Position numbers and translations under genes: made by a program
Source: Mumia sp. Pv4-285
GTDB taxonomy: Bacteria; Actinomycetota; Actinomycetes; Propionibacteriales; Nocardioidaceae
Length of the DNA stretch: 64,000 nucleotides
Direction of reading: 5' to 3'
Assembly (NCBI RefSeq): GCF_041320275.1
Contig: NZ_CP162023.1
Location: 3,596,001 to 3,660,000, forward strand
Part shown: positions 6,510 to 22,359 of the stretch, piece by piece
Layout of the letters: every line of letters starts with the position of its first letter
Numbering within the stretch: the stretch's first letter is position 1
The notes under the pieces: generated by a model
Told to the model about the DNA's origin: nothing
Databases searched by the model: none
What the model saw: only the letters and a program-made list of their open reading frames with translations

Positions 6510-6536
6510 GATCGGACTCCTTCGGATTCACGTCGT

Positions 6537-7642: not shown

Positions 7643-8430
7643 TGCTCGCCCCGCTCACGGTGGCGACGCCACATCAGCACGCGATCGACCGCTCGTGCGA
7701 CGACCTCGTCGGCGGTCGCCGCGCCGGACCGCGCCTCGACCACGAGGTCGGCGGCGACGCCGCTGGAGGAGTCGCGGATGATCTCGGGCAGGTCGACGTC
7801 CTCGATGACCTGGTTGGCGAGCGAGTCGAGGTCGACGCGGTCACGGACGAGGGCGGTGAGGTCGAGCCCGTCCAGCACGTGCGTGACGATGCGCTGGAGG
7901 TCGACCCGGTCGATGACGGTCGCGGTGAGGTCGAGATCGTCGAGCGCGGCCTGGACGACGTCGCCCAGAGCCACCTGCTTCGTCACGAGCTCGGTGAGGT
8001 CGAGCTGATCTAGGACGACCGTGACGACCGTCATGACGTCGACGCGCGAGAGGACGAGCGACGTGAGGTCGATCTGGTCCAGCACCGCGTCGGCGACGAC
8101 GGGGACCGCCTGACGCGCGGTGCGTACGGCGTACTCCTCGGTCTCGCGGCGACGCCGCGCCCCGCGCGACGCGAGACGGCCGATCAGGGTCCCCGGGGCG
8201 CGTGACGTGGGGACGAGCGGTGGGTACGCGAGGTGGTGGGCCACCTGCGAGATGGCGGGGCCGAGCAGGGCTCGGGCGGTCACCGCGGCACGCACGCCGA
8301 TCGTCAGCGTCAGGTCGGCGACTCCGACCACGACGTCGAACGCGGTGGCGGACGCACGTGCGGCCTCGTCGCCGGCGGGCGCGGCGTCGGCTACGTCACC
8401 GCCGTCGTCGTCGTCCGGTCCGCTGTCCAC
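7639..8430 (-). CDS. Unknown protein with four 23-residue tandem repeats
   Basis: 263 residues. The N-terminus is acidic (MDSGPDDDDGGDVADA). Residues 31-60 are hydrophobic (FDVVVGVADLTLTIGVRAAV) and could contact the membrane. An Arg-rich patch (90-96) follows. Residues 121-212 are four consecutive units of exactly 23 residues with the pattern DLTxLVxxRVDLxxVVxxVL, closed by DLPEIIRDS. The remaining C-terminus ends VDRVLMWRRHRERGEQ. Similar proteins occur next to RDD proteins in related genomes as far as I recall, but no function is known to me. GTG 8430 is used; no clear ribosome-binding site is visible. The gene begins only 9 bp after the glycerate kinase stop, so it may be the tail of that operon. 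Confidence 0.75.
   Translation of the reverse strand: MDSGPDDDDGGDVADAAPAGDEAARASATAFDVVVGVADLTLTIGVRAAVTARALLGPAISQVAHHLAYPPLVPTSRAPGTLIGRLASRGARRRRETEEYAVRTARQAVPVVADAVLDQIDLTSLVLSRVDVMTVVTVVLDQLDLTELVTKQVALGDVVQAALDDLDLTATVIDRVDLQRIVTHVLDGLDLTALVRDRVDLDSLANQVIEDVDLPEIIRDSSSGVAADLVVEARSGAATADEVVARAVDRVLMWRRHRERGEQ
7795..8070 (-). repeat. Four 69-bp coding repeats (23 residues each)
   Basis: The units encode residues 121-143, 144-166, 167-189 and 190-212 of the repeat protein. Each starts with DLT and ends in a VLDxL-like segment. They are divergent at the DNA level but invariant in length, suggesting an old solenoid and not recent slippage. Confidence 0.7.
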
Positions 8431-8439: not shown

Positions 8440-9543
8440 CTAGAGCACGGACGACGCCACGTCAGCCGCAATGCGTTCGAGGAGGCTCGGCGCGTCGGTG
8501 ACGCAGCGTGCGAGGTCGGGCTCGAGATCCTGGAGGGCGAAGACACGGTCGACGCCGGCGCCGCGGGCAGCATCGTCGGTCAGGGTCGTACGACCGCAGA
8601 CGACGAACACCGCGGTCCCCCGCGCGGCGGCACGGGCGGCGACGACCGCAGGACCCTTTCCTCGCAGCGTCTGCTCGTCGAACGAACCCTCGCCGGTGAT
8701 CACCACGTCGGCCTCGTCGAGGGCTCGGTCGAGCCCGACGAGGTCCAGCACGAGCTCCGCACCCGACCGGGTCTCGGCGCCGAGCAGCGCGAGCGCCGCG
8801 AAGCCGACCCCGCCGGCGGCACCGGCGCCGGGCGCGTCGCGCAGGTCGTGTCCCGTCGCGGCCGCGACGACGTCCGCCCATCGCGCGAGCGCCGCGTCGA
8901 GGGCCGCGACCTGATCGGGGTCCGCGCCCTTCTGCGGCCCGTAGACGACCGCGGCACCGTGCTCACCCGTGAGCGGGTTGTCGACGTCGCATGCGACCAC
9001 GAGGGACACGCCGTCGAGGCCGAGACCGTCAAGATCGAGCGAGGCGACGTCGGCGAGACCGGCGCCCCCGTCGCGTACGGAAGCACCGTCCGCGTCGAGC
9101 ACCCGTGCGCCGAGGGCGGCGAGCATGCCCGCACCACCGTCGGTCGAGGCGCTCCCACCGATCCCGACGACGATGCGGGTCGCCCCGTCGGCGACCGCCG
9201 CAGCGACGGCCTCACCGAGACCGCGCGAGGTCGTCGTCAGCGGAGCCGGTCCGTCCTCGAGTCGGACCAGGCCGCACGCGTCGGCCATCTCGACGACGGC
9301 GTCGTCGCCGTTCCGCGCGATCGTCGTCGCGACCGGCTGGCCGGTGGGTCCGGCAACGGTCACCGGCACCGGCGTCCAGCCCGCTGCCAGGGCCGCCGCG
9401 ACCGTACCGTCACCGCCGTCGGCGATCGGGAGCTCCACGGCCTCGGCACCCGCGGCGCGCAGACCGCGAGCGATCGAAGCCGCGACCTGGGCGGCGTCGA
9501 GCGACCCCTTGAACTTGTCCGGCGCGACGAGGAACCGGGTCAC
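8440..9543 (-). CDS. glxK: Glycerate kinase (GarK/GlxK family)
   Basis: Phosphorylates D-glycerate with ATP, in this family usually giving 2-phosphoglycerate, and so feeds the product of an oxidative or aldolytic pathway into lower glycolysis. The 367-residue protein starts TRFLVAPDKFKGSLDA, the family hallmark for the substrate site. It has the Gly-rich stretches PIADGGDGTVAAALAAG and VGIGGSASTDGGAGMLAALG, and the late ITGEGSFDEQTLRGKGP motif. The start is GTG 9543, overlapping the stop of the TIM-barrel gene by 4 bp (GTGA). A longer frame upstream lacks similarity. It is the last enzyme of the LacI-controlled operon. Confidence 0.92.
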   Translation of the reverse strand: MTRFLVAPDKFKGSLDAAQVAASIARGLRAAGAEAVELPIADGGDGTVAAALAAGWTPVPVTVAGPTGQPVATTIARNGDDAVVEMADACGLVRLEDGPAPLTTTSRGLGEAVAAAVADGATRIVVGIGGSASTDGGAGMLAALGARVLDADGASVRDGGAGLADVASLDLDGLGLDGVSLVVACDVDNPLTGEHGAAVVYGPQKGADPDQVAALDAALARWADVVAAATGHDLRDAPGAGAAGGVGFAALALLGAETRSGAELVLDLVGLDRALDEADVVITGEGSFDEQTLRGKGPAVVAARAAARGTAVFVVCGRTTLTDDAARGAGVDRVFALQDLEPDLARCVTDAPSLLERIAADVASSVL

Positions 9544-10436
9544 AGGTAGGGCTCGACGAGCTCGGCGTAGCGGCGAGCCATCGTCGCGACCACGTCCTCG
9601 CCCGGCGCCGCCCACACGTCGGCGTTGAAGATCTCGACCTCGACGTCTCCGGTGTAGCCGGTCGCCGCGACCGCGCGCGTGAACGCCGGGAAGTCGACGT
9701 GGCCGTCGCCCATCATCCCGCGCCCGAGCAGGTTGTCGGCCGGGATCGGGGTGATCCAGTCACAGACCTGGTAGGCGACGATCCGGTCGCCGGCGCGGGC
9801 GATCTGCGCCTCCACGTCGGGCTCCCACCACAGGTGGTAGGTGTCGACGACGACGCCGACCTGCGCGACGGGGTGCTGCTCGGCGATGTCGAGCGCCTGC
9901 CGCAGGGAGGAGACGACGCCGCGGTCGGCAGCGAAGATGGGGTGCATCGGCTCGATGCCGAGGCGGACGCCTCGCTCGGCGGCGTACGGCGCGAGCCGGC
10001 CGATCGCCTCGGCCGCTCGTTCGCGTGCTCCGACGATGTCCTTGCTCCCGTCCGGCAGCCCGCCGGGGACGAGGACGAGCACGTCGGTCCCGAGCGCGAC
10101 GCACTCGTCGATCGCGGCGCGGTTGTCGGCGTGCGCGGTCTCGCGGGCGTCGGGATCGGCGGCCGTGAAGAAGCCGCCTCGGCACAAGGAGGACACGCGC
10201 AGCCCGCTGTCGGCGACCCAGCGGGCCGCCGTCTCCAGACCGACCTCGGCCACCGGCTCGCGCCAGAGGCCGATCGACGAGAGGCCCGCGGCACGCGTGC
10301 CGTCGAGCGCCTCCCGCAGCGACCACTGCGCGGTCGTCCGCTGGTTCAGCGACAGGCGTGACAGTCGCGGGTCGCCCACCGACGGCGTCTCGACGCGCGC
10401 TGCGACCCCGCTCGGGACGTCCACCACGGTCGTCAT
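9540..10436 (-). CDS. Sugar phosphate isomerase/epimerase (TIM barrel, AP-endonuclease-2 fold)
   Basis: 298 residues of the xylose-isomerase-like TIM-barrel superfamily, which holds sugar, keto-sugar and cyclitol isomerases and epimerases and some dehydratases. Candidate metal ligands lie at the ends of the beta strands: Glu in LGIEPMHPIFA, Asp-His in VVVDTYHLWWEPD, and Glu in DVEVEIFN. The N-terminal RLSLNQRTTAQWSLREAL holds the conserved strand 1. ATG 10436 overlaps the stop of the DUF993 gene (ATGA). The exact reaction cannot be read from the sequence. Sitting between an aldolase-like protein and glycerate kinase, it probably acts on an early keto-sugar or on an aldol product. Confidence 0.85.
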   Translation of the reverse strand: MTTVVDVPSGVAARVETPSVGDPRLSRLSLNQRTTAQWSLREALDGTRAAGLSSIGLWREPVAEVGLETAARWVADSGLRVSSLCRGGFFTAADPDARETAHADNRAAIDECVALGTDVLVLVPGGLPDGSKDIVGARERAAEAIGRLAPYAAERGVRLGIEPMHPIFAADRGVVSSLRQALDIAEQHPVAQVGVVVDTYHLWWEPDVEAQIARAGDRIVAYQVCDWITPIPADNLLGRGMMGDGHVDFPAFTRAVAATGYTGDVEVEIFNADVWAAPGEDVVATMARRYAELVEPYL

Positions 10437-11602
10437 GGACGCGCTCCTGCAGTCTCGAGGAGCAGGCCGAGCCGGTGTGCGGCGAGGTCGGGGTCCGGCA
10501 GCAGCCGCGCCTCGTTGGCGAGCGCGAACACCTCGGACAGGTGCACCACGCTGCGCGCCGACTGCAGGCCCGAGACCATCGTGAACCCGGGCTGGTGGCC
10601 CGACAGCCACGCGAGGAACGCGATGCCGGTCTTGTAGTAGTAGGTCGGTGCGCTGAAGATGTGCCTCGAGAGCGCCAGGGTCGGCGCCATCTCGGCGTCG
10701 TACGTCGCCAGGTCGCCGTCGTCGAGCGCGGCCAGGGCGGCCGACGCTGCTGGGGCGACCGCCGCGAACGCGCCGAGCAGCGCGTCGGAGTGGTGCGTAC
10801 CGTCTCCGCGGATCAGCTCGGGGTAGTGGAAGTCGTCACCGGTGTAGAGGCGTACGCCCTCCGGCAGGGCTGCGCGCAGACCTACCTCGTGCTCGGCCGA
10901 CAGCAGCGAGACCTTCACGCCGTCGACCCGGTCGGCGTGCGCCTCGACGAGCTGGAGGAACGTGGCCGTCGCCGTGTCGACGTCGGCCGAGCCCCAGTAG
11001 CCGGCCAGGTGGGGGTCGAACGCCTCGCCCAGCCAGTGCAGGACGACCGGCTCGCTGACCTGGCTGAGGACCGTGTCGTAGACCGTCAGGTAGTCCTCGG
11101 CCGTCGACGCGATCGCCGCCAGGTGCCGAGACGCCATCACGATCACCTGGGAGCCGGCGCCTTCGATCGCCGCGACCTGCTCGAGGTAGGCATCGGTCAC
11201 CTCGGCGAGCGTACGGAGCTCGTCACGGTGGTCGGTGCCGGCACCCGAGGCGATCCGCGCACCGACCTCGCGCGCCTGCTCGGCGCTGCGGGTCACGAGG
11301 TCGACCACGGCGGGCCAGTCGAGGCCCATGTTGCGCTGGGCGGTGTCCATCGCCTCGGCGACACCCATGCCGTACCGGAACAGGTGGCGCCGGAACGCGA
11401 GCGTGGACTCCCAGTCGACCGCCGCCGGGGCGCCGGGGACGTTCTCGCCGAACGGGTCGGCGACCACGTGCGCCGCGGCGAACACGGCCCGGCTCGCGTA
11501 CGGAGCGGGGTGGTCGGCGAACGTGCGCGCCTCGCGGAGCTCGATGCCCTGCCACGTGCCGTCGGCACGCGGGACCGCGACCGTGCCGCGCGTGGTCGTC
11601 AC
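10433..11602 (-). CDS. DUF993 protein, dihydrodipicolinate-synthase/aldolase-like
   Basis: 389 residues matching the DUF993 family, which is distantly related to the dihydrodipicolinate synthase (class I aldolase) group. Lys230 in ADRVDGVKVSLL is at the place expected for a Schiff-base lysine near the end of strand 6. The following GVRLYTGDDFHYPELI and the tail with FSAPTYYYKTGIAFLAWLSG are family features. No DUF993 member has a proven reaction that I know of; retro-aldol or lyase cleavage of a keto-sugar acid is an inference from fold and neighbours. GTG 11602 overlaps the oxidoreductase stop by 4 bp, so the four enzymes are translationally linked. Confidence 0.85.
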   Translation of the reverse strand: MTTTRGTVAVPRADGTWQGIELREARTFADHPAPYASRAVFAAAHVVADPFGENVPGAPAAVDWESTLAFRRHLFRYGMGVAEAMDTAQRNMGLDWPAVVDLVTRSAEQAREVGARIASGAGTDHRDELRTLAEVTDAYLEQVAAIEGAGSQVIVMASRHLAAIASTAEDYLTVYDTVLSQVSEPVVLHWLGEAFDPHLAGYWGSADVDTATATFLQLVEAHADRVDGVKVSLLSAEHEVGLRAALPEGVRLYTGDDFHYPELIRGDGTHHSDALLGAFAAVAPAASAALAALDDGDLATYDAEMAPTLALSRHIFSAPTYYYKTGIAFLAWLSGHQPGFTMVSGLQSARSVVHLSEVFALANEARLLPDPDLAAHRLGLLLETAGARP

Positions 11603-12756
11603 GCCGTCTCCTCGATGCTCACCGTCCGGCCCTCCCGCGACGACTCCAGCGCGGCATCGACCAGCTGGAGCCCGCGCACACCCGACCACAGGTCGTGGCG
11701 GTGCGGACGACCGGCGTGCCAGTCGAGGAGGAACTCCTCCCACTGCGCGCGGAACCCGTTCGCGAACTCCTGGTTGTCGGGCACCTCGGACCACTGGTCC
11801 CGGAAGACCTGGTCCGTCGGGAGATCCGGGTTCCAGACCGGCTTCGGCGTGCGCACCCGAGACTGCACCTTGCACCCGAAGAGGCCCGCCACTGCGGAGC
11901 CCTCCGTGCCGTCGACCTGGAACTCGACGAGCTCGTCCCGGTTGACGCGGACCGCCCACGAGGAGTTGATCTGCGCGACGATGCCGCCCTCGAGCTCGAA
12001 GATGCCGTACGCCGCGTCGTCCGCGGTCGCCTCGTAGGCCTCGCCCTTCTCGTCCCAGCGCTTCGGGATGTGCGTGACCGCGCGGGTCGTCACCTTCTCG
12101 ACCTTGCCGAGGATGTTCTCGAGGACGTAGTTCCAGTGGCAGTACATGTCGAGGACCATCCCGCCGCCGTCCTCGGCGCGGTAGTTCCAGCTCGGACGCT
12201 GGGCGGGGATGAGGTCGCCCTCGAAGACCCAGTAGCCGAACTCGCCCCGCACCGACAGGATGCGGCCGAAGTAGCCGGCGTCGACCAGCCGGCGCAGCTT
12301 GAGCAGGCCCGGCAGGTAGAGCTTGTCGTGGACGACGCCGTTGAGGATGCCTGCGGCGTCAGCCGCACGGGCGATCTCGACCCCCTCGCCGACGGTCTCG
12401 GCGATGGGCTTCTCGGTGTAGATCGCCTTGCCGGCCGCGATCGCCTTGAGGAGCGACTTCTTGCGCTCCGACGTGACGAGGGCGTCGAAGTAGATCGGCG
12501 CGGTCTCGTCGGCCAGGGCCTCGTCGACGTCCACCGTCCACTCGGCGATGCCGTGACGCTCGGCGAGCTCGGCGAGCTTGTCGGCGTTGCGGCCGACGAT
12601 CACCGGCTCGACCTGGAGGCGGCTCCCGTCGGGCAGCTCCACGCCGCCCTCGTCCCGGATCGCGAGGATCGAGCGGAGCAGGTGCTGGCGGTACCCCATC
12701 CGACCGGTGACGCCGTTCATGACGATCCGGACGCTCTGCTGTGCCATGGACTTCAC
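11599..12756 (-). CDS. Gfo/Idh/MocA family NAD(P)-dependent oxidoreductase
   Basis: 385 residues from GTG 12756. This start overlaps the livF stop (GTGA) and has GAGAG 5 bases upstream; an ATG at 12747 is the alternative. The N-terminal Rossmann domain carries RIVMNGVTGRMGYRQHLL. The family lysine is in YTEKPIAETV (EKP at residues 112-114 counted from the ATG), and the active-site region is GGGMVLDMYCHWNYV, with Asp200 and His204. Members oxidise or reduce sugars, inositols and sugar acids, often at C3 or C1 to a keto product. Here it most likely oxidises the imported compound before DUF993 acts. Confidence 0.88.
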   Translation of the reverse strand: MKSMAQQSVRIVMNGVTGRMGYRQHLLRSILAIRDEGGVELPDGSRLQVEPVIVGRNADKLAELAERHGIAEWTVDVDEALADETAPIYFDALVTSERKKSLLKAIAAGKAIYTEKPIAETVGEGVEIARAADAAGILNGVVHDKLYLPGLLKLRRLVDAGYFGRILSVRGEFGYWVFEGDLIPAQRPSWNYRAEDGGGMVLDMYCHWNYVLENILGKVEKVTTRAVTHIPKRWDEKGEAYEATADDAAYGIFELEGGIVAQINSSWAVRVNRDELVEFQVDGTEGSAVAGLFGCKVQSRVRTPKPVWNPDLPTDQVFRDQWSEVPDNQEFANGFRAQWEEFLLDWHAGRPHRHDLWSGVRGLQLVDAALESSREGRTVSIEETA

Positions 12757-13535
12757 CCGTTCTCTCGTGTGGCGGTCTCGGCCGGCGTGGCCTGTGCGTG
12801 GGCGGGCTCGCTCGGACGCCCGCCGAGGTAGAGCGCACCGAGCTGGGGGTCGGCGAGGAGCTCGGGCGCGGGGCCCGAGATGTGGACGCGTCCCAGGTCG
12901 AGCACGCAGCCGACGTCGGCGGTCTCGAGGGCGCGTCGGGCGTTCTGCTCGACGAGGAGCACGGCGATGCCCGCGTTGCGCATGCGGACCACCTGGTCGA
13001 AGACCGTGGCGGTCGTCTTGGGGTCGAGGCCCATCGACGGCTCGTCGAGGAGCACCACCTTCGGGCTCACCATCAGCGAGCGGGCGAACTCGACCTGCTT
13101 CTGCTGTCCACCGGACAGCAGGCCGGCGAGCTGCTTCCACCGCTCTCCGACGATCGGGAAGAGCGACTGGACGAACTCCATCCGCTCCGCCACCTTCGCC
13201 TTGTCGCGCACGGTGAACGCGCCGAGCATGACGTTCTCCTCGACCGTCATCTCGCGGAACACGCTGTGCCCCTGGAGGACGTGGGCGAGACCCGAGGCGA
13301 GCATCGCCTGGGGGCCTTGACCGGTCACGTCGACGCCGTCGACGACGACCGACCCCGACCGTGGGGTCAGCAGTCCGCTGGCCACCTTCAGGACGGTCGA
13401 CTTGCCGGCGCCGTTCGGGCCGACGAGGCAGACCACCGAACCGGCGGGCACCTTCACGGTGAGGCCGCGGAGCACGAGCGCGGCGCGCCCGTACCCGGCC
13501 TCGATGTCGTTGAGCTCGAGCAGGTAGTCAGACAC
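12753..13535 (-). CDS. livF: Liv-type ABC importer ATP-binding protein
   Basis: 260 residues. It has Walker A GPNGAGKST, signature LSGGQQKQVEFAR, Walker B VVLLDEPSMGL and the LivF-type switch region VLLVEQNARRAL. The ATPase pairs with LivG to power the LivH/LivM permease. The 25-residue Ala/Pro/Glu-rich C-terminal extension (RPSEPAHAQATPAETATREN) is longer than usual. It overlaps livG by 8 bp and the downstream oxidoreductase by 4 bp. Substrate specificity resides in LivK, not here. Confidence 0.93.
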   Translation of the reverse strand: MSDYLLELNDIEAGYGRAALVLRGLTVKVPAGSVVCLVGPNGAGKSTVLKVASGLLTPRSGSVVVDGVDVTGQGPQAMLASGLAHVLQGHSVFREMTVEENVMLGAFTVRDKAKVAERMEFVQSLFPIVGERWKQLAGLLSGGQQKQVEFARSLMVSPKVVLLDEPSMGLDPKTTATVFDQVVRMRNAGIAVLLVEQNARRALETADVGCVLDLGRVHISGPAPELLADPQLGALYLGGRPSEPAHAQATPAETATRENG

Positions 13536-14292
13536 CGAGATACGCCTCCAGCACTCGCGGATCGGACTGGACCTCCGACGGAGGTCCTTCGGCGATCGGT
13601 CGACCGCGGTCGAACACGATGACGTGGTCGCTCAGGCTCATCACCATCTCCATGTTGTGCTCCACGACGACGAAGGTCCTGCCCTCGGCGTTGAGCTCGC
13701 GGATGAGGGTGCCGATCCGACCGATCAGAGCCGGGTTCACACCACCGGCGGGCTCGTCGAGCATGATGAGGTCGGGCTCGGCCATGAGGACACCGGCGAG
13801 CTCGAGCAGCTTCTGCTGGCCGTACGAGATGTCGGCCGCCTCGGACCGCTCCAGGTGGTCGATGCCGACGCGCCGCAGGTAGCCCCGGGCGCGCTCGATC
13901 TCGTCGTCGTCGCGCGCACCCTTGAGCAACGAGCGCAGCCCGTCGGTGCGGTGGGCGACCAGGACGTTCTCGAGGACGGTCATCCGCGGGAAGATCCGGC
14001 ACAGCTGGAAGCTGCGACCGATCCCTGCTCGCGCGATCCGGTGCGGCGACCGTCCGGTGACGTCGTTGCCCCGGTAGGTGACCTTGCCCGAGTCGGGCTT
14101 GATCATCCCTGTGACGCAGTTGAAGAACGTCGTCTTGCCGGACCCGTTCGGGCCGATCAGCGCGTTCACCTTGCCCTCGTGGAAGGTCACGGTCGCGTCG
14201 TCCACGGCCTTCACCCCACCGAAGGCCTTGCTGAGCGAGACCGTGGCGAGGCTCTCGCGGGGAGGTGCGATCGGGTTCGCGCTGGTGGTCAT
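13528..14292 (-). CDS. livG: Liv-type ABC importer ATP-binding protein
   Basis: 254 residues. It carries Walker A GPNGSGKTTFFNCVTG, typical of LivG in having TTFFN. It also carries the signature in ISYGQQKLLELAGVLM (divergent, SYGQQ for SGGQ), Walker B LIMLDEPAGGVNP and the switch histidine in FVVVEHNMEMVMSL. It drives branched-chain-amino-acid-type (HAAT) uptake. The start at 14292 overlaps livM by 4 bp. Together with livF it shows that the whole transporter is encoded as one unit. Confidence 0.93.
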   Translation of the reverse strand: MTTSANPIAPPRESLATVSLSKAFGGVKAVDDATVTFHEGKVNALIGPNGSGKTTFFNCVTGMIKPDSGKVTYRGNDVTGRSPHRIARAGIGRSFQLCRIFPRMTVLENVLVAHRTDGLRSLLKGARDDDEIERARGYLRRVGIDHLERSEAADISYGQQKLLELAGVLMAEPDLIMLDEPAGGVNPALIGRIGTLIRELNAEGRTFVVVEHNMEMVMSLSDHVIVFDRGRPIAEGPPSEVQSDPRVLEAYLGV

Positions 14293-15380
14293 CGCTTCGT
14301 CCTCTCTGGTGTGGCAGCGCCCGTGGCGGCGGTGTGCCGATCCGCCCGCTCGGACGTCTCCTCCTCGTCGCGCTCCAGCAGCTGCGCGGCCGTCATCTCC
14401 CGGATCGAGCTGCGCTCCGGGGTGAACCGGTCGACGAGCTTCATCCCGGCCGGGATGATCCCGTCGGGCATGAAGAGGACGACGACGCCGAGCAGCAGAC
14501 CGGTGGCGACGAGGTGGAACTGGGTGTCACCGAACTCGAGCTTGAAGTACTCCAGAGCGGTGCCCACGATGAGCGCGCCGAGCAGCGGGCCGTACAGCTG
14601 GCGGACGCCGCCGAGCAGCGCCATCAGCACCATGTAGGAGCCGATCAGGATCGAGAACTGGAACACCGGGTCCAGGTCGCCGAACCACAGCGCGTACATG
14701 CCGCCACCGAGCGCGGTGAAGAACGCCGAGACGACGTACACGACGAGCTTGTACGAGTAGGTCGGGATGCCGAGGGCCTCCGCCTTGTCCTCGTCCTCGC
14801 GGATGGCCTTGAGACCCATCCCGAACCGGGAGCGGTCGATCAGCCACCAGCAGAGCAGCGTCACCGCGAGGAGCGCCGCGAACAGGTAGAAGAACGTCTC
14901 GTGGTGCTCGGGACGCAGCATGTCCGGGAACGGACGCGGCACGACCAGGCCGTTCGAGCCACCCGTGAAGTCGCTCCAGCTCTGGAAGACCAGCAGCATG
15001 ATGAGCACGAGCGCGATCGACACGATGACGAACGACGCCCCACGCACCCGCAAGGCAGCCCAACCGACCGGGATCGCGAAGATCGCGACCAGGACGCCCG
15101 CGACTGCCCAGGCGACGAAGCTCGAGAGCTCCATCTTGGTGATCAGCAGCGCCGTCCCGTACGCCCCGAGGCCGAACCATGCCGCGTGGCCGAGCGAGAT
15201 GTAGCCGGTGAACCCGCCGACGAAGTTCCACGACGTGGAGAGCACCGCGTAGCTGAGCACGACGATGCCGGCCGACAGGATGTAGGGGTTGGCGGCCCAG
15301 CTGGGGAAGGTCAGCAGTGCAGCCGCGCACGCGGCGAACACCACGACCTTCGCCACGAAGACCTTAGAAACGCTGGGCAA
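14289..15380 (-). CDS. livM: Liv-type ABC importer permease
   Basis: 363 residues with about ten hydrophobic segments, beginning VFVAKVVVFAACAAALLTF. It has the LivM signature SLGHAAWFGLGAYGTALL and the coupling loop GMGLKAIREDEDKAEALGI. The C-terminal 35 residues after the last helix are hydrophilic. It forms the membrane pore with LivH. The start lies within the end of livH (17-bp overlap). Members transport amino acids but also urea, amides, aromatic acids and other small organic compounds, so the name does not fix the substrate. Confidence 0.92.
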   Translation of the reverse strand: MPSVSKVFVAKVVVFAACAAALLTFPSWAANPYILSAGIVVLSYAVLSTSWNFVGGFTGYISLGHAAWFGLGAYGTALLITKMELSSFVAWAVAGVLVAIFAIPVGWAALRVRGASFVIVSIALVLIMLLVFQSWSDFTGGSNGLVVPRPFPDMLRPEHHETFFYLFAALLAVTLLCWWLIDRSRFGMGLKAIREDEDKAEALGIPTYSYKLVVYVVSAFFTALGGGMYALWFGDLDPVFQFSILIGSYMVLMALLGGVRQLYGPLLGALIVGTALEYFKLEFGDTQFHLVATGLLLGVVVLFMPDGIIPAGMKLVDRFTPERSSIREMTAAQLLERDEEETSERADRHTAATGAATPERTKR

Positions 15381-16248
15381 GACGACCTCCGAAGAATCCT
15401 TGCGGCCGCAGCATCAGCGTGGCGAACAGCGCCACGTAGAAGATGGTCTGCGCCCACGTCGTCCCCATCGGGATCTGCAGCAGGCTCTGCCCGATGCCGA
15501 GCACCATCGCGGCGATCGCGGCGCCGGGGATGCTCCCCAGGCCGCCCACGACGATGATCGCCATCAACGGGCCGATCCAGTGCCAGTGCAACGACGGGTA
15601 GATGGTCGCGTCGAGCGACAGCGCCGTGCCGCCGATCGCCGCGGTGGCCAGACCGAGGCCGAAGCCGTAGCCCGCCACCCGGTCGGTCTTGATGCCGACC
15701 AGCTGGGCGGCCTCCTTGTGCTGGATGGTCGCACGCAGCGACTGGCCGAACTTCGTGTACTTCATGATCACGTACAGCGCGGCGAGCGACGACGCGGCCA
15801 ACCCGAACGTGATGAGCTTGACCACCGCGACGTGGGCGCCGAACACCTCGATGCTCTCGCCGCTGTAGCCGAGCTGGATGCGGCGCTGCGTGCCCGAGAA
15901 CACGAAGCCCAGCAGGCCCTCGATCGTCAGGGCGATCGCGAAGGTCAGCAGCACCGACATCATCGTGAGTGTCACCGGTCGGAGCCTCGCCACGAGCAGC
16001 CGCTGCATCAGGACGCCGACGGCGAAGAAGAGCGGGACCGTGACGATCAGGGAGAGCAACGGGTCGATGCCGGTCTCGCGGTGGAACCACCACGCGAGGT
16101 AGGCCGCGAGGATGAGGAACGCCGAGTGCGCGATCATCACCACCCGCATGATCCCGAAGTAGAGCGTGAGCCCGGCTGCCAGGAGGGCGTAGAGCCCTCC
16201 CAGCAGGATCCCCAGGATCAGGCTCTGGAAGAGGAGCGAGCCATCCAT
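15364..16248 (-). CDS. livH: Liv-type ABC importer permease
   Basis: 294 residues with about eight hydrophobic helices, starting MDGSLLFQSLILGILLGGLYALLA without its longer in-frame extension. The start was set at ATG 16248 because residues from there match LivH N-termini. The EAA-like cytoplasmic loop is FGQSLRATIQHKEAAQLVGI. Partner of LivM. It starts 7 bp after the livK stop, in one operon with it. Confidence 0.92.
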   Translation of the reverse strand: MDGSLLFQSLILGILLGGLYALLAAGLTLYFGIMRVVMIAHSAFLILAAYLAWWFHRETGIDPLLSLIVTVPLFFAVGVLMQRLLVARLRPVTLTMMSVLLTFAIALTIEGLLGFVFSGTQRRIQLGYSGESIEVFGAHVAVVKLITFGLAASSLAALYVIMKYTKFGQSLRATIQHKEAAQLVGIKTDRVAGYGFGLGLATAAIGGTALSLDATIYPSLHWHWIGPLMAIIVVGGLGSIPGAAIAAMVLGIGQSLLQIPMGTTWAQTIFYVALFATLMLRPQGFFGGRLAQRF

Positions 16249-16255
16249 CAGCGCG

Positions 16256-17479
16256 TCACCAAGCCGGCTTCGGGTAGATGATGTCGGCTTCCTTGACGTC
16301 CTCCGGGAGGACGATCTTGATCTCGCCACCGACGTACTGCTGGATCATGTGGGCGCCCTGCGGGCGGCCGTCGGCGTCCCAGCTCAGCGGCCCGACGACG
16401 GTCTCGACCTCGTTCTCGTGGAGCCAGTCGATCATCTTCTGCTGGCACTCGCCCTGCTCGGCGCACCCGGCGGCCTCGACGGCGGCGGCGACGACCTGGC
16501 CGGTCGTGTAGGCGTTGGCCTCGTCCTCGCCGGGCGGGTTGCCGTTGCGCTTGGTGTAGCTCTCGACGAACTCCTTGTTGGTGGCCACGGTGGCCTCCGT
16601 CGTGTAGCCGGTGGGCGAGAGGATGCCCTCCGTCTTGTCACCGATCGCCTCGGGGAACTCGGGGTTGGTCGGTGCGGTCGAGAACGCCGCCAGCTTCGGC
16701 TGGTAGTCGAGCTGCTGGAGCGCCACGATCAGGTTGACCGCGTCCTGGTACTGGGTGCCGCCCACGATCATGTCGGCGTCGGACGACTCGATCTTCGCGG
16801 CGATGCTGCTGAAGTCGGTGGTGTTCGGCGGGTACTTCTCGTCGACCACGGTCTTGACGCCCGCGGCCTCCATCTTGTCCTTGAGGCCGTACGCCGTGCC
16901 CATCGCGAACGGGTCGTCCATGGCCGCGTACGCCGCGGTCTTGGGGCGCTGGTCGGCGGGGAGGGCCTCGATCCACTCGGCGAGGTAGTTGTAGTGGTCG
17001 TTCGCGACCGCGGGGGCGGCGTAGAAGAGGTTGCCGAAGCCCTGCTCGAAGACCTCCGGAGCCGCACCTGCCGGCTCGACGAACAACATGCCGTACTCGT
17101 CGGCGACGCGGGCTGCGGGGACGACCAGGCGGGTCGAGAACGGCCCGAACACCAGGTCGACCTCGTCCTGGGCGATCAGGGACTCGTAGTCGGCGACGAC
17201 GCGGTCCGCGTTGGACTGGTCGTCGAGGATCTTCAGCTCGACCTTGCGTCCGAGGAGGCCGCCGGCGTCGTTGACGTCCGCCGCCCACGCCTCGTACCCG
17301 CGCTGGACGCCCTTGCCCGGCTCGGCGAAGTCACCCGTCAGGGGGAGCGAGACGCCGATGGTGATGGGGCCTTCGTCGTCACCGGAGCCGGAGTCAGATC
17401 CTCCGCATGCGGTGAGGGCCAGGGATGCGGCGCCGAGGATGGCGCCGATCCGCATGATGCTCGTTGTCTTCATCGACAT
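16256..17479 (-). CDS. livK: Extracellular substrate-binding lipoprotein of the Liv-type importer
   Basis: 407 residues. The signal peptide has lipobox LTAC (AASLALTACGG), so it is anchored outside the membrane. The mature part is a type I periplasmic-binding fold of the Leu/Ile/Val class, starting ITIGVSLPLTGDFAEPGKGV. The family usually binds amino acids through a Ser/Thr-Ser pocket, but related members bind amides or aromatic acids. The presence of sugar-type enzymes and a LacI regulator suggests a polyol, sugar acid or modified sugar. The start is ATG 17479 with GTAGGAG 4 bases upstream; ATG 17473 is possible. It is the first gene of the operon, next to the dual operator. Confidence 0.92.
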   Translation of the reverse strand: MSMKTTSIMRIGAILGAASLALTACGGSDSGSGDDEGPITIGVSLPLTGDFAEPGKGVQRGYEAWAADVNDAGGLLGRKVELKILDDQSNADRVVADYESLIAQDEVDLVFGPFSTRLVVPAARVADEYGMLFVEPAGAAPEVFEQGFGNLFYAAPAVANDHYNYLAEWIEALPADQRPKTAAYAAMDDPFAMGTAYGLKDKMEAAGVKTVVDEKYPPNTTDFSSIAAKIESSDADMIVGGTQYQDAVNLIVALQQLDYQPKLAAFSTAPTNPEFPEAIGDKTEGILSPTGYTTEATVATNKEFVESYTKRNGNPPGEDEANAYTTGQVVAAAVEAAGCAEQGECQQKMIDWLHENEVETVVGPLSWDADGRPQGAHMIQQYVGGEIKIVLPEDVKEADIIYPKPAW

Positions 17480-17517
17480 GACACTCCTACGATTTGAGGT
17501 CCGCGTGTCCGGGCCGC

Positions 17518-17543
17518 CGTAAGCGCTTTCGTAAGCGCTTACG
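17518..17543. promoter_or_regulatory. Dual LacI-type operator between livK and the lacI-family gene
   Basis: Two AAGCGCTT palindromes (cores 17521-17528 and 17533-17540), centres 12 bp apart. The second is embedded in the perfect 14-bp palindrome cgtaagcgcttacg. The central CG and flanking A/T pattern is the classic form bound by LacI/GalR dimers. They lie immediately downstream of the predicted livK -10 box and about 110 bp upstream of the regulator start, so both repression of livK and autoregulation are likely. Confidence 0.85.
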
Positions 17544-17544
17544 T

Positions 17545-17574
17545 AGGATAGACAGGGAACGGCGACTGTGGCAA
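17545..17574 (-). promoter_or_regulatory. Predicted livK operon promoter
   Basis: On the minus strand TTGCCA (17569-17574) and TATCCT (17545-17550) are separated by 18 bp. The first operator half begins 4 bp downstream of the -10 box, so a bound repressor would cover the transcription start. Confidence 0.6.
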
Positions 17575-17649
17575 GCGTCACAAGTCGCGGGGGGCGGGCG
17601 TACCGCCCCAGGATGCATGCCCAACGCAAAGCCGAGAAGGGGGAACCGG

Positions 17650-18681
17650 ATGGCGAGAGGTCGAACCGCGCCACGGCTGGTGGACGTGGCCGAGCGGGCG
17701 GGCGTCTCGCTCGCGACCGCGTCGCGCGCACTGTCCGGACGCGACGGCGTCAGCCCGGCCGTCGCGCAGCGGGTCCAGGAGGTCGCCTCCGAGCTCGGCT
17801 ACGTGGTCAACGCGCACGCCCGCTCGCTGGCCGGCGGCTCCGCCTCGGTGGTCGGGCTCATCGTCCACCAGATCGACGACCCGTACTTCTCCGAGATCGC
17901 GGCCGGCGTCATCTCGGTCGCCTACGAGCACGGCATCACCGTGCAGATCTGCCACTCGGCGCGCGACCCCGAGAACGAGCTCCGTCAGATCCGTACGCTC
18001 ATCGCCAACAACGTCCGCGCGATCATCGTCGCGGGCTCCGGATACGTCGGCGAGGACGTCGAGACCGCCGCGAAGCGCGAGCTCGCCGCGTTCCAGGACA
18101 CCGGCGGCCGCGTCGCCGTGATCGGTCGTCACGCCCTGCGGGCCGACGCCGTGCTGCCGGACAACGAGGACGCGGGCGCCGCACTGGCCGAGCACCTGGT
18201 CGAGCTGGGCCACCGCCGGATCGCGATCGCTTCAGGGACGGTCAACCTGACGACCGTCGTCGACCGGCTCGCCGGCATCGAGCGCGCGCTCGCCGGCCAC
18301 GGCATCGACATCGACGACCTCCCGCTCGTGGAGGCCGAGTTCACCCGGGACGGAGGCGCGTACGCCACCGAGCGGATCGTCGCCGACCATCCCGCCACCA
18401 CCGCCATCATCGCCCTGAACGACGCGATGGCGATCGGCGCGCTCGCGACGTTGCGGTCGCACGGGATCGCCGTGCCGTCGCACATGTCCGTGGTCGGGTT
18501 CGACGACGTGACCGTCGCCGCCGACCTCGCACCCAGCCTCACGACGGTCCGGCTCCCGATGACCGAGATGGGTGCAGACGCGCTCATGATGGCGCTGAAG
18601 GACCACTCGTCGCGGCCTCGCCGTCGCCACACAGGCCACGAGCTGATGGTCCGCGACTCCAGCGGCCCCGCTCGCGTCTGA
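17650..18681 (+). CDS. LacI/GalR family transcriptional regulator
   Basis: 343 residues. The N-terminal HTH and hinge helix are seen in LVDVAERAGVSLATASRALS and the following SPAVAQRVQEVASELGYVVN. The effector domain is of the periplasmic-binding type (VVGLIVHQIDDPYFSEIAAG; ALNDAMAIGALATLRSHGI; SVVGFDDV). The start ATG 17650 has GAGAAGGGGG upstream; an ATG at 17617 lacks one. It is divergent from the livK operon and next to the GSDH/ThuA genes. The three dual AAGCGCTT operators in this window are its probable targets. The effector is presumably the imported substrate or an intermediate. Confidence 0.93.
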   Translation: MARGRTAPRLVDVAERAGVSLATASRALSGRDGVSPAVAQRVQEVASELGYVVNAHARSLAGGSASVVGLIVHQIDDPYFSEIAAGVISVAYEHGITVQICHSARDPENELRQIRTLIANNVRAIIVAGSGYVGEDVETAAKRELAAFQDTGGRVAVIGRHALRADAVLPDNEDAGAALAEHLVELGHRRIAIASGTVNLTTVVDRLAGIERALAGHGIDIDDLPLVEAEFTRDGGAYATERIVADHPATTAIIALNDAMAIGALATLRSHGIAVPSHMSVVGFDDVTVAADLAPSLTTVRLPMTEMGADALMMALKDHSSRPRRRHTGHELMVRDSSGPARV

Positions 18682-18690
18682 CACGCAGAA

Positions 18691-18720
18691 GGGGGCGACG
18701 GGCTCCGGCCCGCCGCCCCC
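18691..18720. terminator. Bidirectional terminator between the LacI and GSDH genes
   Basis: 13-base arms gggggcgacgggc and gcccgccgccccc with one A/C mismatch and loop tccg, between genes converging at 18681 and 18730. Confidence 0.8.
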
Positions 18721-18729
18721 TCCGTCACG

Positions 18730-21063
18730 TCACTCGACGCGGCGGAACTGCTGGTTCACCTCCAGCTTCGTGAGGGAGCTGTCGAGGAACATCAGGCTGT
18801 CCATCCGGCAGTTGCAGGGGTTCCGCTCGGAACCGTTCTGCGGGAAGCTGCCACCGATCTTGATACCGCGCGGGTTGGTCGCGGACGTGACTTCCTCACC
18901 GGGGGCGGCGTTGCCCCACGGGTCGTCGGTCCGGGTGTAGAAGCCCGGGATCGGCTTGCCGTTCTTGTACAGCGCCATGGTGCCGTTCGTGTAGTTGAAC
19001 GTCGCGGCGATGTGGACCCACTCACCCTGCGGGAGCAGCGTGCGCCAGTCCTCCGACGCGGCGAACGTCTGCGACGCACCGGTGTCGACGCGTCGTCCGA
19101 GCGCGACCAGCCGCAGCTCGCCGTTGACGTCGATCAGCTCCAGCAGCGCCCGGACACCGTGGCCGTCGGAGTTCCCGGAGAGCACCCCGGCGAGCCCGAT
19201 CGCGTTGTAGCGGTCGTTCGGGTCGGGAGTGTTCGTGTTGAGGGACGGTCCGTCGCCGGTCATCTTGACCCAGCCCATCACCGTGATCCCCTTGGCCGAG
19301 CTGAACCGCGACAGCGACTCCACACCGTCGGCGTCGTCCTCGTAGACCCCTGCCTTCCACGGCAGCTGACCGTTCGCCGGGTCGGCTTCGCGCAGCTGGA
19401 TCGAACGCTTGCTGCCGTCGAACGCCCCGTCCTTCACCCGCATGTCGGAGCCACCGTTGATCAGGTCGATCGTGGTGCCCGACGGGCCTCGGTCGAGCTC
19501 GACGTCGCGCGACCAGGGCCGCTCGAAGTCGTAGTGGGAGACCATGTACGGCGTCAGCGCCGGGTGGACGTCGCGGTCGTGCTTGACCTTCTTGGTGCCG
19601 ACGATCTTCCACACCTTGCCGTTGGCCTTCGCGAGCAGGTAGAGCTCGTCGCCACCGTCGCGGCCGAGCCGCAGGTCGACCCGCCGGTCGCCCGACAGGA
19701 TCGGCGTCGTGACCTCGTTGCCCTGCTCGTCGAACAGCGTGAGCTCGTGGATCTGGGCCGCCGGACCGCCGCGGACCATCTCGTCGTCCTCGGTGTACAT
19801 CACGCGACCGTCGACGAGGTCGGCGAAGAGGTACTTGTCCTTGAGCTTCGGGACGTCCTTGCCTCGGTAGACGAAGCCACCGCTGACGGCGTGACCGACG
19901 TCCGCACCGCACGGGTACCCCGGCGGCGGGTTGTGGTCGTACTGCGCGACCGGGTAGTTGTAACCGTTCTCCTCGTCGCCCTCGGGCAGCGGGTACAGGT
20001 TGCAGCGGTCCGCCTTGTCGAACAGGAAGGACCCCTCGCGCTCGCTCCAGCCGGAGTTGTCGCCGGCCTTGATGTCGTAGATCGCCTCGACGTCCTTCTC
20101 GCCGATGTGGCCGAGCAGGAGGCGCTCCGAACCGCCGGTGTCCCAGCTGAAGCGGTGCGGGTCGCGGAAGCCGTACGCGTAGATCTCGCCGATCGCGCCC
20201 GGCGTGCCGACGAACGGGTTGTTCGACGGGATGCCGTACTTGCCGTTGTCGCTGCTCGTCCCGGTGGGGTCGATGCGCAGCAGCTTGCCCTGGGGGGTGC
20301 CCAGGTTCTGGGGCTCGTCGGTGCTGACGCCGATGCCGCCGTCGCCGGACGCGACGTACAGCAGGCCGTAGTCGTCGTCGCGCCGGTCGGCGTTCGGGTT
20401 GAACTCGATCTGCTGGATGCCGTGGATGCGCGTGGCGTAGCCGAGGCGGAGCACCTCACGGTGCGTGCCGCTGAAGGTGTTCGCCCTCGGGTTGTCGGCG
20501 GTCCACTCCGTGATCACGCCGTGGTACGCCGTGTTGGGCTGCGGCGTCAGGTCGGGCGTCTTGTTGGTGAGCGCGCCGAACGCCTCCGTGTGCACGGTGT
20601 AGAACTTGCCGTTGCGCTTGAAGTCGGGGTGCCAGGTGACGAAGCCGAAGCCGCTGCCCATGCCGGCACCGGAGAAGAAGTCGGCACCCACCGCGGCCTT
20701 CAGGTCGAGGTACGGCGTGGGCGCGCCCGGGTTGCCGTGCTTGCCGCCGCCACGCATCAGGTAGAGCGTGCCGTTGAGGTCGGGCACGTAGAGCCTTCCG
20801 GAGTCGTCCGGGAGCTCGCCGAGGTAGTTGATGCGCGCGTGCCGCATCAGGCGCGGGTCGGTCGGGGCGGGTGTCGGCTCCGACTTCGGGAATTGGGCGA
20901 CCTCCTCGACCACGAGCCCGAAGTCGGCCATGACCGGCTCCGGGAGCGGGTCGGTGAGGGGTGCAGGCGCGGCGGGATCTGCCGCCGTCGCCATCGTGGC
21001 TGTGGTCATCGTCGCGGCGACCAGTGCGGCCGCAGCGACGAGACTCCACCTTCGTTGGGTCAT
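18730..21063 (-). CDS. Secreted PQQ-type sugar dehydrogenase (GSDH) domain protein with LamG domain
   Basis: About 777 residues. A signal peptide (RRWSLVAAAALVAATMTTATMATAADP) is followed to about residue 490 by a six-bladed glucose/sorbosone dehydrogenase propeller: YLGELPDDSGRLYVPDLNG, the GSGFGFVTWHPDF segment, RIHGIQQIEFNP with LLYVASGDGGIG, and AYGFRDPHRFSWD. A LamG/concanavalin-like jelly roll follows (YDFERPW, MGWVKMTG, GEWVHIAATFNYTNGTMALYKNGK). The family oxidises aldoses with PQQ, or binds sugar derivatives. No pqq genes are in view, so the cofactor must be imported or the domain may be non-oxidative. ATG 21063 has GGTGG 5 bases upstream; ATG 21075 is possible. Preceded by its own promoter and dual operator. 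Confidence 0.88.
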   Translation of the reverse strand: MTQRRWSLVAAAALVAATMTTATMATAADPAAPAPLTDPLPEPVMADFGLVVEEVAQFPKSEPTPAPTDPRLMRHARINYLGELPDDSGRLYVPDLNGTLYLMRGGGKHGNPGAPTPYLDLKAAVGADFFSGAGMGSGFGFVTWHPDFKRNGKFYTVHTEAFGALTNKTPDLTPQPNTAYHGVITEWTADNPRANTFSGTHREVLRLGYATRIHGIQQIEFNPNADRRDDDYGLLYVASGDGGIGVSTDEPQNLGTPQGKLLRIDPTGTSSDNGKYGIPSNNPFVGTPGAIGEIYAYGFRDPHRFSWDTGGSERLLLGHIGEKDVEAIYDIKAGDNSGWSEREGSFLFDKADRCNLYPLPEGDEENGYNYPVAQYDHNPPPGYPCGADVGHAVSGGFVYRGKDVPKLKDKYLFADLVDGRVMYTEDDEMVRGGPAAQIHELTLFDEQGNEVTTPILSGDRRVDLRLGRDGGDELYLLAKANGKVWKIVGTKKVKHDRDVHPALTPYMVSHYDFERPWSRDVELDRGPSGTTIDLINGGSDMRVKDGAFDGSKRSIQLREADPANGQLPWKAGVYEDDADGVESLSRFSSAKGITVMGWVKMTGDGPSLNTNTPDPNDRYNAIGLAGVLSGNSDGHGVRALLELIDVNGELRLVALGRRVDTGASQTFAASEDWRTLLPQGEWVHIAATFNYTNGTMALYKNGKPIPGFYTRTDDPWGNAAPGEEVTSATNPRGIKIGGSFPQNGSERNPCNCRMDSLMFLDSSLTKLEVNQQFRRVE

Positions 21064-21178
21064 TCCATCCACCATCCGTGTGTCGTCAGAGGGTTTCGCA
21101 GATGGCTCGAGACGAGGTCGTCGAGAACGTGCATTCCGAGACCGTCGTCTCCCCGAGACCGAGCCTTCTCAGATGTGC

Positions 21179-21204
21179 CGAAAGCGCTTCCGTAAACGCT
21201 TTCG
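21179..21204. promoter_or_regulatory. Dual LacI-type operator upstream of the GSDH gene
   Basis: Cores AAGCGCTT (21182-21189) and AAACGCTT (21194-21201) with the same 12-bp centre spacing and 26-bp total length as the livK operator. It lies just downstream of the predicted minus-strand -10 box. Confidence 0.8.
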
Positions 21205-21207
21205 TGA

Positions 21208-21237
21208 AACGTACGGGTATGACGTAGGTCACGTCAA
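21208..21237 (-). promoter_or_regulatory. Predicted GSDH gene promoter
   Basis: TTGACG (21232-21237) and TACGTT (21208-21213) on the minus strand with an 18-bp spacer, the same spacing as at livK. The operator begins 6 bp downstream. Confidence 0.55.
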
Positions 21238-21278
21238 GCGCACGTTACGGCGCCGTGTCGCTGCCGGTACGTCCCCTC

Positions 21279-21307
21279 TTGACGCATTGCGCCGGGAGGA
21301 GGATCGT
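21279..21307 (+). promoter_or_regulatory. Predicted ThuA gene promoter
   Basis: TTGACG (21279-21284) and a weak -10 GATCGT (21302-21307) with a 17-bp spacer. The dual operator follows 7 bp downstream, as in the other two promoters of the set. Confidence 0.45.
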
Positions 21308-21311
21308 CCGA

Positions 21312-21338
21312 CGCAAGCGCTTCCCGCAAGCGCTTGCG
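21312..21338. promoter_or_regulatory. Dual LacI-type operator upstream of the ThuA gene
   Basis: Two perfect AAGCGCTT cores (21315-21322 and 21328-21335), centres 13 bp apart. The second is inside cgcaagcgcttgcg. It lies 59 bp upstream of the ThuA start codon. Confidence 0.82.
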
Positions 21339-21396
21339 CCACTCCTCCGGGTGGCGCCCCGATGCGTCAAGGACGTCGCACACCGAAGGAAGTGTC

Positions 21397-22359
21397 ATGA
21401 GGATGAGAAAGATCCTGGCCGGAGCGTTCGCGCTGCTGGTCGGCGCGACCGTGCTCGCAGCATGGCCATCGGTCGCCGAACGCGGCGGCACGCGGTGGGC
21501 GGTCGACGACGACACCCGAGCCGACTACGGCGTCTGTCGCGGCACGGACGACGACTGCTACCACGAGTGGCAGACCGCGTTCCGCACCGACGGTGTCGAC
21601 CGTGTCCTGGTCTACAGCGCGACCGGCGTCTCCCGCCACGCGCACCTCGGCCCGCGGCTCGCCGCAGGGATGAACCCCGCACTGGGCGACGCCAACGTCG
21701 CCCAGAAGGCGATGCTCCGCTGGGGCGCCGAGAACGACCTCACCGTCGACTGGACCGAGGACGTCGCCCAGCTCGACTCCCCCGCCAAGCTGCTGCGCTA
21801 CGACGCAGTGGTGTTCCTGAGCAACTCCCGCGACATCCTCGACGATGCCGCGCAGACCACGCTCATGCAGTACGTCCGTGCCGGCGGCGGATTCGTCGCC
21901 GTGCACAACACGCTCGGCGCCGAGTACCACTGGCCCTACTTCCAGGGACTCCTCGGGGGCGCCAACTTCTACGACCACGGACCGTCCCGCAACGGCGTCG
22001 TCGAGAAGGCGAGCCGACGAGACGTCTCCGTCGCCGAGCTTCCCAAGCGGTTCACCATGAAGGACGAGTTCTACAACCTCGTCCCGTTCCCGACCGGTGT
22101 CCGGGTGCTTGCCCGCGTCGATCCCGAGACCCTCGAAGGAGGCGGGAAGGGCTTCAACGGCCACCCCGGCCACCCGGTCGAGCACCCGGTGACCTGGTGC
22201 CAGTACTACGACGGCGGTCGGTCGTGGGTGACCTCGCTCGGCCACGAGGTCGCGCTCTGGCAGGACACGCCCGGTGACGAGCAGGCTCGCCTGTTCAAGA
22301 GCCACGTCGTCAACGGCCTGCTCTCCACGATGGGCAAGAAGCCCTTCTGCCGAGCCTGA
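21397..22359 (+). CDS. Secreted ThuA-domain protein
   Basis: 320 residues with a signal peptide (MRMRKILAGAFALLVGATVLAAW). The ThuA fold (glutamine-amidotransferase-like) is recognised from VLVYSATGVSRHAHL, the YDAVVFLSN strand, and GGGFVAVHNTLGAEYHWPYF followed by LLGGANFYDHGP. The end has PVTWCQYYDGGRSWVTSLGHE. The founding member ThuA takes part in trehalose utilisation via keto-sugars. Secreted actinobacterial versions often occur with GSDH-type propellers, and a role in processing keto-glycosides has been suggested for related proteins. ATG 21397 has GAAGGAA upstream. The gene is divergent from the GSDH gene and under a dual LacI operator. Confidence 0.87.
   Translation: MRMRKILAGAFALLVGATVLAAWPSVAERGGTRWAVDDDTRADYGVCRGTDDDCYHEWQTAFRTDGVDRVLVYSATGVSRHAHLGPRLAAGMNPALGDANVAQKAMLRWGAENDLTVDWTEDVAQLDSPAKLLRYDAVVFLSNSRDILDDAAQTTLMQYVRAGGGFVAVHNTLGAEYHWPYFQGLLGGANFYDHGPSRNGVVEKASRRDVSVAELPKRFTMKDEFYNLVPFPTGVRVLARVDPETLEGGGKGFNGHPGHPVEHPVTWCQYYDGGRSWVTSLGHEVALWQDTPGDEQARLFKSHVVNGLLSTMGKKPFCRA

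Follow-up and report, generated by a model that had tools for sequence, protein, structure and literature searches.

The region analyzed here is a 64,000-nt stretch (hereafter the window; positions 3,596,001-3,660,000) of the 4.65-Mb genome of Mumia sp. Pv4-285 (G000), in which an importer operon of the Liv type continues into genes for a Gfo/Idh/MocA oxidoreductase (GFO), a DUF993 protein, a TIM-barrel isomerase/epimerase-like protein (TIM) and a glycerate kinase (GK). A lacI gene is transcribed divergently from livK, and two further genes encode a GSDH-LamG protein and a ThuA-family protein (Table 1), which are termed secreted on the basis of signal-like N-termini judged by eye. This gene content and order had been proposed in an initial annotation, and both are confirmed by Pfam matches and coordinates; the importer has the composition of the HAAT (Liv) class, with a binding protein, two permeases and two branched-chain-type ATPases. 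The accompanying statement that nearly all junctions of the operon overlap is certain for six out of eight: adjacent genes share 4 bp at livM/livG, livF/GFO, GFO/DUF993, DUF993/TIM and TIM/GK, and 8 bp at livG/livF, whereas livK and livH are separated by a gap of 7 bp, and livH/livM is either an overlap of 17 bp or a gap of 7 bp, depending on the start. Two further overlapping genes (157 and 263 aa; 7169-8430, minus strand) start 9 bp past the GK gene and may extend the operon; the 263-aa protein has no Pfam match.

Table 1. Genes and predicted operator sites of the Liv-GFO-DUF993-TIM-GK locus (window positions).
Feature	Position	Strand	Remarks
Glycerate kinase (GK, PF02595)	8440..9543	-	GTG start; 4-bp overlap with the TIM gene; PF02595 E 3.5e-120; TIGR00045 339 bits vs cut-off 168
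TIM-barrel isomerase/epimerase-like protein (PF01261)	9540..10436	-	E 3.9e-41; PDB relatives 7vpf, 3ju2 (SMc04130), 3qc0
DUF993 protein (PF06187), predicted Schiff-base lyase (Lys230)	10433..11602	-	E 2.1e-176
Gfo/Idh/MocA oxidoreductase (GFO)	11599..12756	-	PF22725, PF02894, PF01408; PDB relative 3oqb, 468 bits
LivF-type ABC ATPase	12753..13535	-	Pfam
LivG-type ABC ATPase	13528..14292	-	Pfam; BCA_ABC_TP_C
LivM-type permease	14289..15380	-	BPD_transp_2; start may be 15356
LivH-type permease	15364..16248	-	BPD_transp_2
LivK-type solute-binding protein	16256..17479	-	Peripla_BP_6
Paired LacI-type operator, lacI/livK gap	17521..17540	.	Motif match
LacI-family regulator, 343 aa	17650..18681	+	Pfam LacI; divergent from livK
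GSDH + LamG protein, signal-like N-terminus	18730..21075	-	GSDH 5.7e-20 + Laminin_G_3
Paired operator, GSDH-LamG side	21182..21201	.	Motif match
Paired operator, ThuA side	21315..21335	.	Motif match
ThuA-family protein, signal-like N-terminus	21397..22359	+	ThuA 1.7e-42

The window contains three copies of a paired operator motif, AARCGCTT-N4/5-AARCGCTT; besides the copy in the lacI/livK gap, there are two in the region that separates the GSDH gene from the divergent ThuA gene. The pair with the 5-base spacer gave no match in 100 shuffles of the window, and the whole genome has only four distinct paired sites, three of them in the window. Thus, as had been suggested, the importer operon with lacI, the GSDH-LamG gene and the thuA gene share one operator type. 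The fourth site is located roughly 1.86 Mb away from this locus (L162:6149-8267, that is, G000:C1 about 1754148-1756266), between genes for a PIG-L deacetylase (PF02585, 1.7e-26) and a Tat-signal PF01261 protein, which may be members of the same regulon. Of the 22 family genomes compared, 12 of the 14 that encode DUF993 have the pair, as opposed to none of the eight that lack it, and all these sites are found at the DUF993 locus, except for the fourth site of Mumia sp. Pv4-285. At the sequence level, the importer-enzyme operon with lacI, the genes for GSDH-LamG and ThuA, and the remote gene pair are thus marked by a single LacI-type paired operator.

DUF993 was detected in 3 of the 6 genomes of the genus, in 70 of the 196 examined from the order (69 above the cut-off) and in 120 of a class-wide sample of 394. 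The gene neighborhoods were compared in 121 contexts, nearly all from Actinomycetota and selected for the presence of DUF993, that comprise the window, 40 contexts of the order and 80 from named genomes. Genes were called by a simple codon-score script, which recovered DUF993 in 118 of the 121 loci selected for having it and assigned some wrong starts (for example, to LivK of L034 and L078). On the strand of DUF993, TIM was found in 116 loci and GFO in 114. In 112 of the 118 loci, which are mainly actinobacterial, both genes adjoin DUF993 directly, the median overlap being 4 bases. The whole Liv-GFO-DUF993-TIM block recurs in 20 loci of Nocardioidaceae, Amycolatopsis and Saccharopolyspora, all with the identical order livK-H-M-G-F-GFO-DUF993-TIM. 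These comprise the window and 13 same-family contexts (together, all 14 DUF993-bearing genomes recovered for the family), two Amycolatopsis, three Saccharopolyspora and, once more, Nocardioides lianchengensis, whose sequence (L082) is identical to that of a same-family genome (L037), leaving 19 independent loci; most of them share descent, so that counts across loci do not represent independent events. In a DUF993 tree built by a quick method, all 20 Liv rows fall within one well-supported set of 28 (SH-aLRT 99). The search for conserved co-occurrence of DUF993 with these families, recommended in the initial annotation, thus gave a positive result, and the combination is not peculiar to one genome; such conservation rules out a chance neighborhood of genes.

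Among the 20 Liv loci, the paired operator is located upstream of livK in 18, the remaining two having one intact half, and lacI likewise adjoins livK in 18. The two Amycolatopsis loci retain the operator, and no close lacI was found there within the stretch examined. The union of a HAAT importer, a LacI regulator and sugar-type enzymes into one set is thus maintained across most of these loci. Of the 94 loci that lack Liv genes, 72 have a looser single palindrome (AANCGNTT) in the 300 bp preceding GFO, compared with a background rate of 0.033 per 330 bp elsewhere. We conclude that the Liv and secreted-protein set is a version of a widespread, uncharacterized GFO-DUF993-TIM pathway under predicted LacI control. 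Near the trio, 24 loci contain a second PF01261 gene (Streptomyces such as L100, with L083 and L085) and 14 contain a gene of the GH3 family (Streptomyces such as L100), in both cases mostly on the other strand.

A further 16 contexts, 15 of them annotated, were taken from plasmids, mostly of Pseudomonadota; they were hand-picked among 40 listed of 147 and do not constitute a random sample. Some of them have distinct arrangements. In the plasmids of Sinorhizobium (L154) and Microvirga (L164), DUF993 is divergent from lacI and is accompanied by a different GFO-family gene, a CoA-transferase, an enoyl-CoA hydratase and an aldehyde dehydrogenase, possibly representing another type of DUF993 pathway. 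Those of Roseibium (L166) and Peteryoungia (L167) combine DUF993 with a GMC oxidoreductase, a Dabb protein, lacI and a MOFRL-type GK, and contain no relatives of GFO or TIM.

The structural model of DUF993, computed from 66 sequences with a predicted local distance difference test (pLDDT) score of 95.3, replaced an earlier model from 12 sequences (pLDDT 67.7) and has a (beta/alpha)8 barrel with C-terminal helices. Among its first 50 Foldseek matches are 4dnh (SMc04132), followed by YagE, dihydrodipicolinate synthase (DHDPS) and N-acetylneuraminate lyases; the match to YagE (2v8z) has E 4.5e-11 and a TM score of 0.83 by target length. YagE is presumably a 2-keto-3-deoxygluconate (KDG) aldolase, its database entry reading DHDPS-family protein. 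When the DUF993 profile was aligned with that of 14 DHDPS-family proteins taken from related genomes (E 2.7e-5, probability 74.5), Lys230 (GVKVSLL, on strand 226-232, which is strand 6) fell on their invariant lysine, which we take to be the Schiff-base residue. The tyrosine sought on strand 5 is not present in DUF993; His189 aligns with the near-invariant, presumably catalytic, tyrosine of these proteins, and both Lys230 and His189 are invariant in 66 DUF993 sequences. DUF993 thus shares with the DHDPS/N-acetylneuraminate lyase/KDG aldolase (YagE) superfamily the (beta/alpha)8 fold, the C-terminal helices and the strand-6 lysine; it differs in being about 90 residues longer, in having His189 in the place of tyrosine, and in matching only the DUF993 model and not PF00701, the DHDPS family, at E 0.001. 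No motif of the GTTGE type was seen by eye, the corresponding region lying outside the profile alignment. Since the superfamily fold is combined with Lys230 at the position of the DHDPS lysine, invariant in 66 sequences, a Schiff-base mechanism is likely, and the role of splitting enzyme that had been assigned to DUF993 becomes plausible in the form of a predicted C-C lyase.

Solved relatives are available for TIM, DUF993 and GFO, namely SMc04130 (3ju2), SMc04132 (4dnh) and 3oqb, respectively; their depositors labeled them as uncharacterized protein or oxidoreductase, and our literature search found no function for them. Thus, all three proteins of the trio have solved relatives without functional explanation. 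SMc04132, SMc04133 and SMc04135 appear together in one table of a PhaR study (PMC12542648). None of the papers searched contains the term 'DUF993' or 'PF06187', and searches on the structures, gene combinations and keto-glycosides retrieved nothing on function.

Genes for PF02595-type GK are sparse, with two copies in the Mumia sp. Pv4-285 genome and usually one to three per genome among 57 genomes of the order, and by arithmetic about 1% of 20-kb stretches would hold one. Such a gene was found in 18 of the 121 loci, 13 of which are Liv loci of shared descent; no GK of the DUF4147/MOFRL type was found in the 121 loci. The GK gene directly follows TIM in this genus, in L084 and in a Micromonospora locus (L134), and 9 of the 13 same-family contexts have it oppositely oriented and placed after lacI; the stretch of L038 stops just past lacI, where a GK gene could escape detection. 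In the plasmid set, a GK is annotated in 9 of the 15 annotated contexts, a count that comes from a non-random sample. The two GKs from Actinomycetota plasmids (L157, L160) belong to PF02595, whereas the seven from Pseudomonadota (L155, L156, L159, L164, L166, L167 and L169, with L156 and L169 being near-copies) belong to the unrelated DUF4147/MOFRL family, whose members we take from annotation and general knowledge to be glycerate 2-kinases. In L164, L166 and L167, DUF993 stands beside the kinase and the rest of the trio is missing. The recruitment of two unrelated kinase families beside DUF993 in two phyla argues that glycerate is a real end product, and it bears out GK as a partner in the pathway, as had been anticipated.

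Importers differ among the loci. Of the three binding-protein types whose relatives were sought in 118 loci, HAAT was found in 20, NMT1-like in eight (five on the opposite strand) and SBP_bac_1-like in six (one opposite), while none of the three was found within the stretch examined in the other 84. The importer genes near DUF993 in the annotated plasmids encode TTT (L161, L165, L170), MFS (L155, L158), NMT1 (L163) or sugar-type ABC transporters (L154, L156, L160, L164, L167, L169), with TRAP genes on the other strand in L159. The Micromonospora locus contains genes for an NMT1-type binding protein, an ATPase, the trio, GK, a GSDH fusion protein described below, a LamG protein and more than one LacI, and thus has much the same gene set with another importer. 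Amino-acid-type transport therefore looks like a lineage-specific choice, HAAT being one of several importers near the trio.

The secreted proteins differ in their conservation. Both had been counted as parts of the set; GSDH is kept in 19 of the 20 Liv loci, whereas ThuA was found in only three of the 121 loci, all of this genus. ThuA is ruled out as a core part and looks like a genus-level accessory. A class-III aminotransferase gene (22369-23841, plus strand) adjoins thuA and by clustering has a counterpart in L035; it could be, but need not be, a member of the regulon. In 14 of the 20 Liv loci, the place of ThuA is taken by a protein of about 235 aa, here named c12, and GK is present in 13 of these 20. 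No Pfam family matched c12 at the curated cut-off; its sub-threshold matches (for example, Laminin_G_3, 3.6e-4, and lectin folds) do not support a DUF1080-like 3-keto-disaccharide hydrolase. A c12 search of the window genome was empty, which is uninformative without a positive control. The Micromonospora locus (L134:14089-17201) encodes a GSDH fused to a c12 domain and a separate LamG protein, that is, the same three modules joined differently. His218 and Arg304 of GSDH are invariant in 17 sequences, at what we take to be the catalytic positions of pyrroloquinoline quinone (PQQ) enzymes; the best matches of the GSDH profile are Hedgehog-interacting proteins, with weaker matches to 2g8s, 2ism, 3das and 3a9g.

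We consider it somewhat probable that the locus is a dedicated catabolic regulon, with a secreted stage, import, oxidation, rearrangement and cleavage by DUF993, a part of the substrate leaving as phosphoglycerate. In this predicted pathway, the secreted GSDH-LamG and ThuA proteins (c12 in relatives) would act on an extracellular carbohydrate-derived substrate, and LivKHMGF would import the small sugar or sugar-acid product. GFO would oxidize the latter with NAD(P), TIM would isomerize, epimerize or eliminate, DUF993 would form a Schiff base at Lys230 and cleave a C-C bond, and the C3 product would be converted to glycerate, to be phosphorylated by GK.

Several observations weigh against this scheme. 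Genes for a lactonase, a dehydratase and an aldehyde dehydrogenase are missing from the window operon, which leaves gaps on the way to glycerate. No GK was found in 103 of the 121 loci; given its absence at most of them, the kinase may be supplied from elsewhere. The place of the catalytic tyrosine is taken by His189, so that the reaction of DUF993 may not be that of a standard aldolase, and genes for CoA-transferase and for enoyl-CoA hydratase or related enzymes near DUF993 in L154, L157, L158 and L164 are not needed by a simple aldolase route. In bacteria other than Actinobacteria the trio holds together less tightly: only 9 of the 16 plasmid contexts have a GFO as well as a TIM relative near DUF993, and in L155 the gene order differs. 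The paired form of the operator is present in just three of the 94 Liv-lacking loci, and the two other DUF993-bearing genomes of the genus showed no fourth operator outside the locus. Finally, the functional tie of the GSDH, ThuA and LamG proteins to the operon is a prediction from sequence. As candidate sugar-acid dehydratases, enolase-superfamily neighbors were considered at some loci: that of L134 is closest to muconate cycloisomerases, below the cut-off, that of L165 matches MR_MLE_C, and that of L163 matches nothing.

Two known types of sugar oxidation were weighed against the dedicated regulon. The nicotine plasmid pAO1 of Paenarthrobacter nicotinovorans (L160) encodes a GMC oxidoreductase, an aldehyde dehydrogenase (AldH), GFO, DUF993 and a PF02595-type GK in a row, the latter three adjacent and directly after aldH, together with a Peripla_BP_4 binding protein. 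Its GFO, which we assume to be ORF40, a xylose dehydrogenase, is 65.7% identical to that of the window over 379 residues, and the record of its AldH is tagged with D-xylose catabolism. By analogy, GFO would be an aldose 1-dehydrogenase (for example, of D-xylose), DUF993 would cleave or dehydrate a 2-keto-3-deoxy acid, and GK would take a product derived from glycolaldehyde or glyceraldehyde. Such an aldose route is unlikely here: the TTT, NMT1 and HAAT importers near the trio are unlike those for a plain pentose, and the window operon is without a sugar-acid dehydratase or lactonase. The pAO1 locus differs in its sugar-type importer, with no TIM relative and no Liv, GSDH or ThuA found in the stretch examined. 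Alternatively, in a chemistry of the levoglucosan or 3-keto-disaccharide type, GFO would oxidize C3, TIM would catalyze beta-elimination, and DUF993 would act late. The levoglucosan pathway is built of the same enzyme types, GFO-type and PF01261, with an ABC importer, according to the accessible text of its description (PMC10066097). A weak resemblance of GFO to levoglucosan dehydrogenase (LGDH) and disaccharide 3-dehydrogenase in NCBIfam, as well as the additional PF01261 proteins encoded close to some of the trio loci and beside the fourth operator, point the same way. Nevertheless, we regard the 3-keto route as rather improbable, since GFO scores 54.7 bits against the 650-bit cut-off of the levoglucosan dehydrogenase (LgdA) equivalog, and the accessible text of that paper names no DUF993- or GK-like enzyme and has the word 'dihydrodipicolinate' 0 times (PMC10066097).

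A different explanation, that the importer serves for the uptake of an ordinary amino acid or an amide, with the downstream sugar-type genes having a function of their own, starts from LivK, whose closest relatives in PDB are amino-acid-binding HAAT proteins. Compared with two of them, 4n0q and 3ip5, LivK keeps an acidic residue, Asp246, at the position of their Glu; however, Ala139 replaces their Thr, at a position that we equate with Thr102 of the LIV-binding protein, and an invariant Arg117 is nearby. Given the roles that these pocket residues presumably have in amino-acid binding, the pattern neither proves nor excludes an amino-acid-like ligand. LivK, with a mean column identity of 80% among 17 sequences, reaches no more than 35% identity, and this over a short stretch, with the six other matches in its own genome, and the order from livK to TIM and the operator upstream of livK are kept in 20 of the 20 Liv loci (counting the two with one intact half). 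Import of an ordinary amino acid is thus very unlikely.

Going beyond the dedicated regulon itself, we tentatively suggest, as a possibility somewhat short of probable, that DUF993 represents a novel type of Schiff-base C-C lyase, with His for Tyr, central to an undescribed GFO-DUF993-TIM-GK pathway. This pathway would occur across several phyla, with importers that can replace one another and with GKs from two unrelated families. In Nocardioidaceae and Pseudonocardiaceae it would be extended by a HAAT importer, carrying a carbohydrate-derived compound other than an amino acid, and by an oxidative front end outside the cell.

Elsewhere in the window, two open frames with 1593 and 1571 codons (positions 1728-6587) lie antisense to each other and overlap almost completely; the codon-score caller favors the minus strand.

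The paired operator provides a direct handle on the identity of the inducer. Identification of the pathway would provide an annotation for genes that many soil bacteria have and reveal a nutrient that they evidently use; it would also put to the test whether carbohydrate catabolism can be served by an importer of the Liv type.

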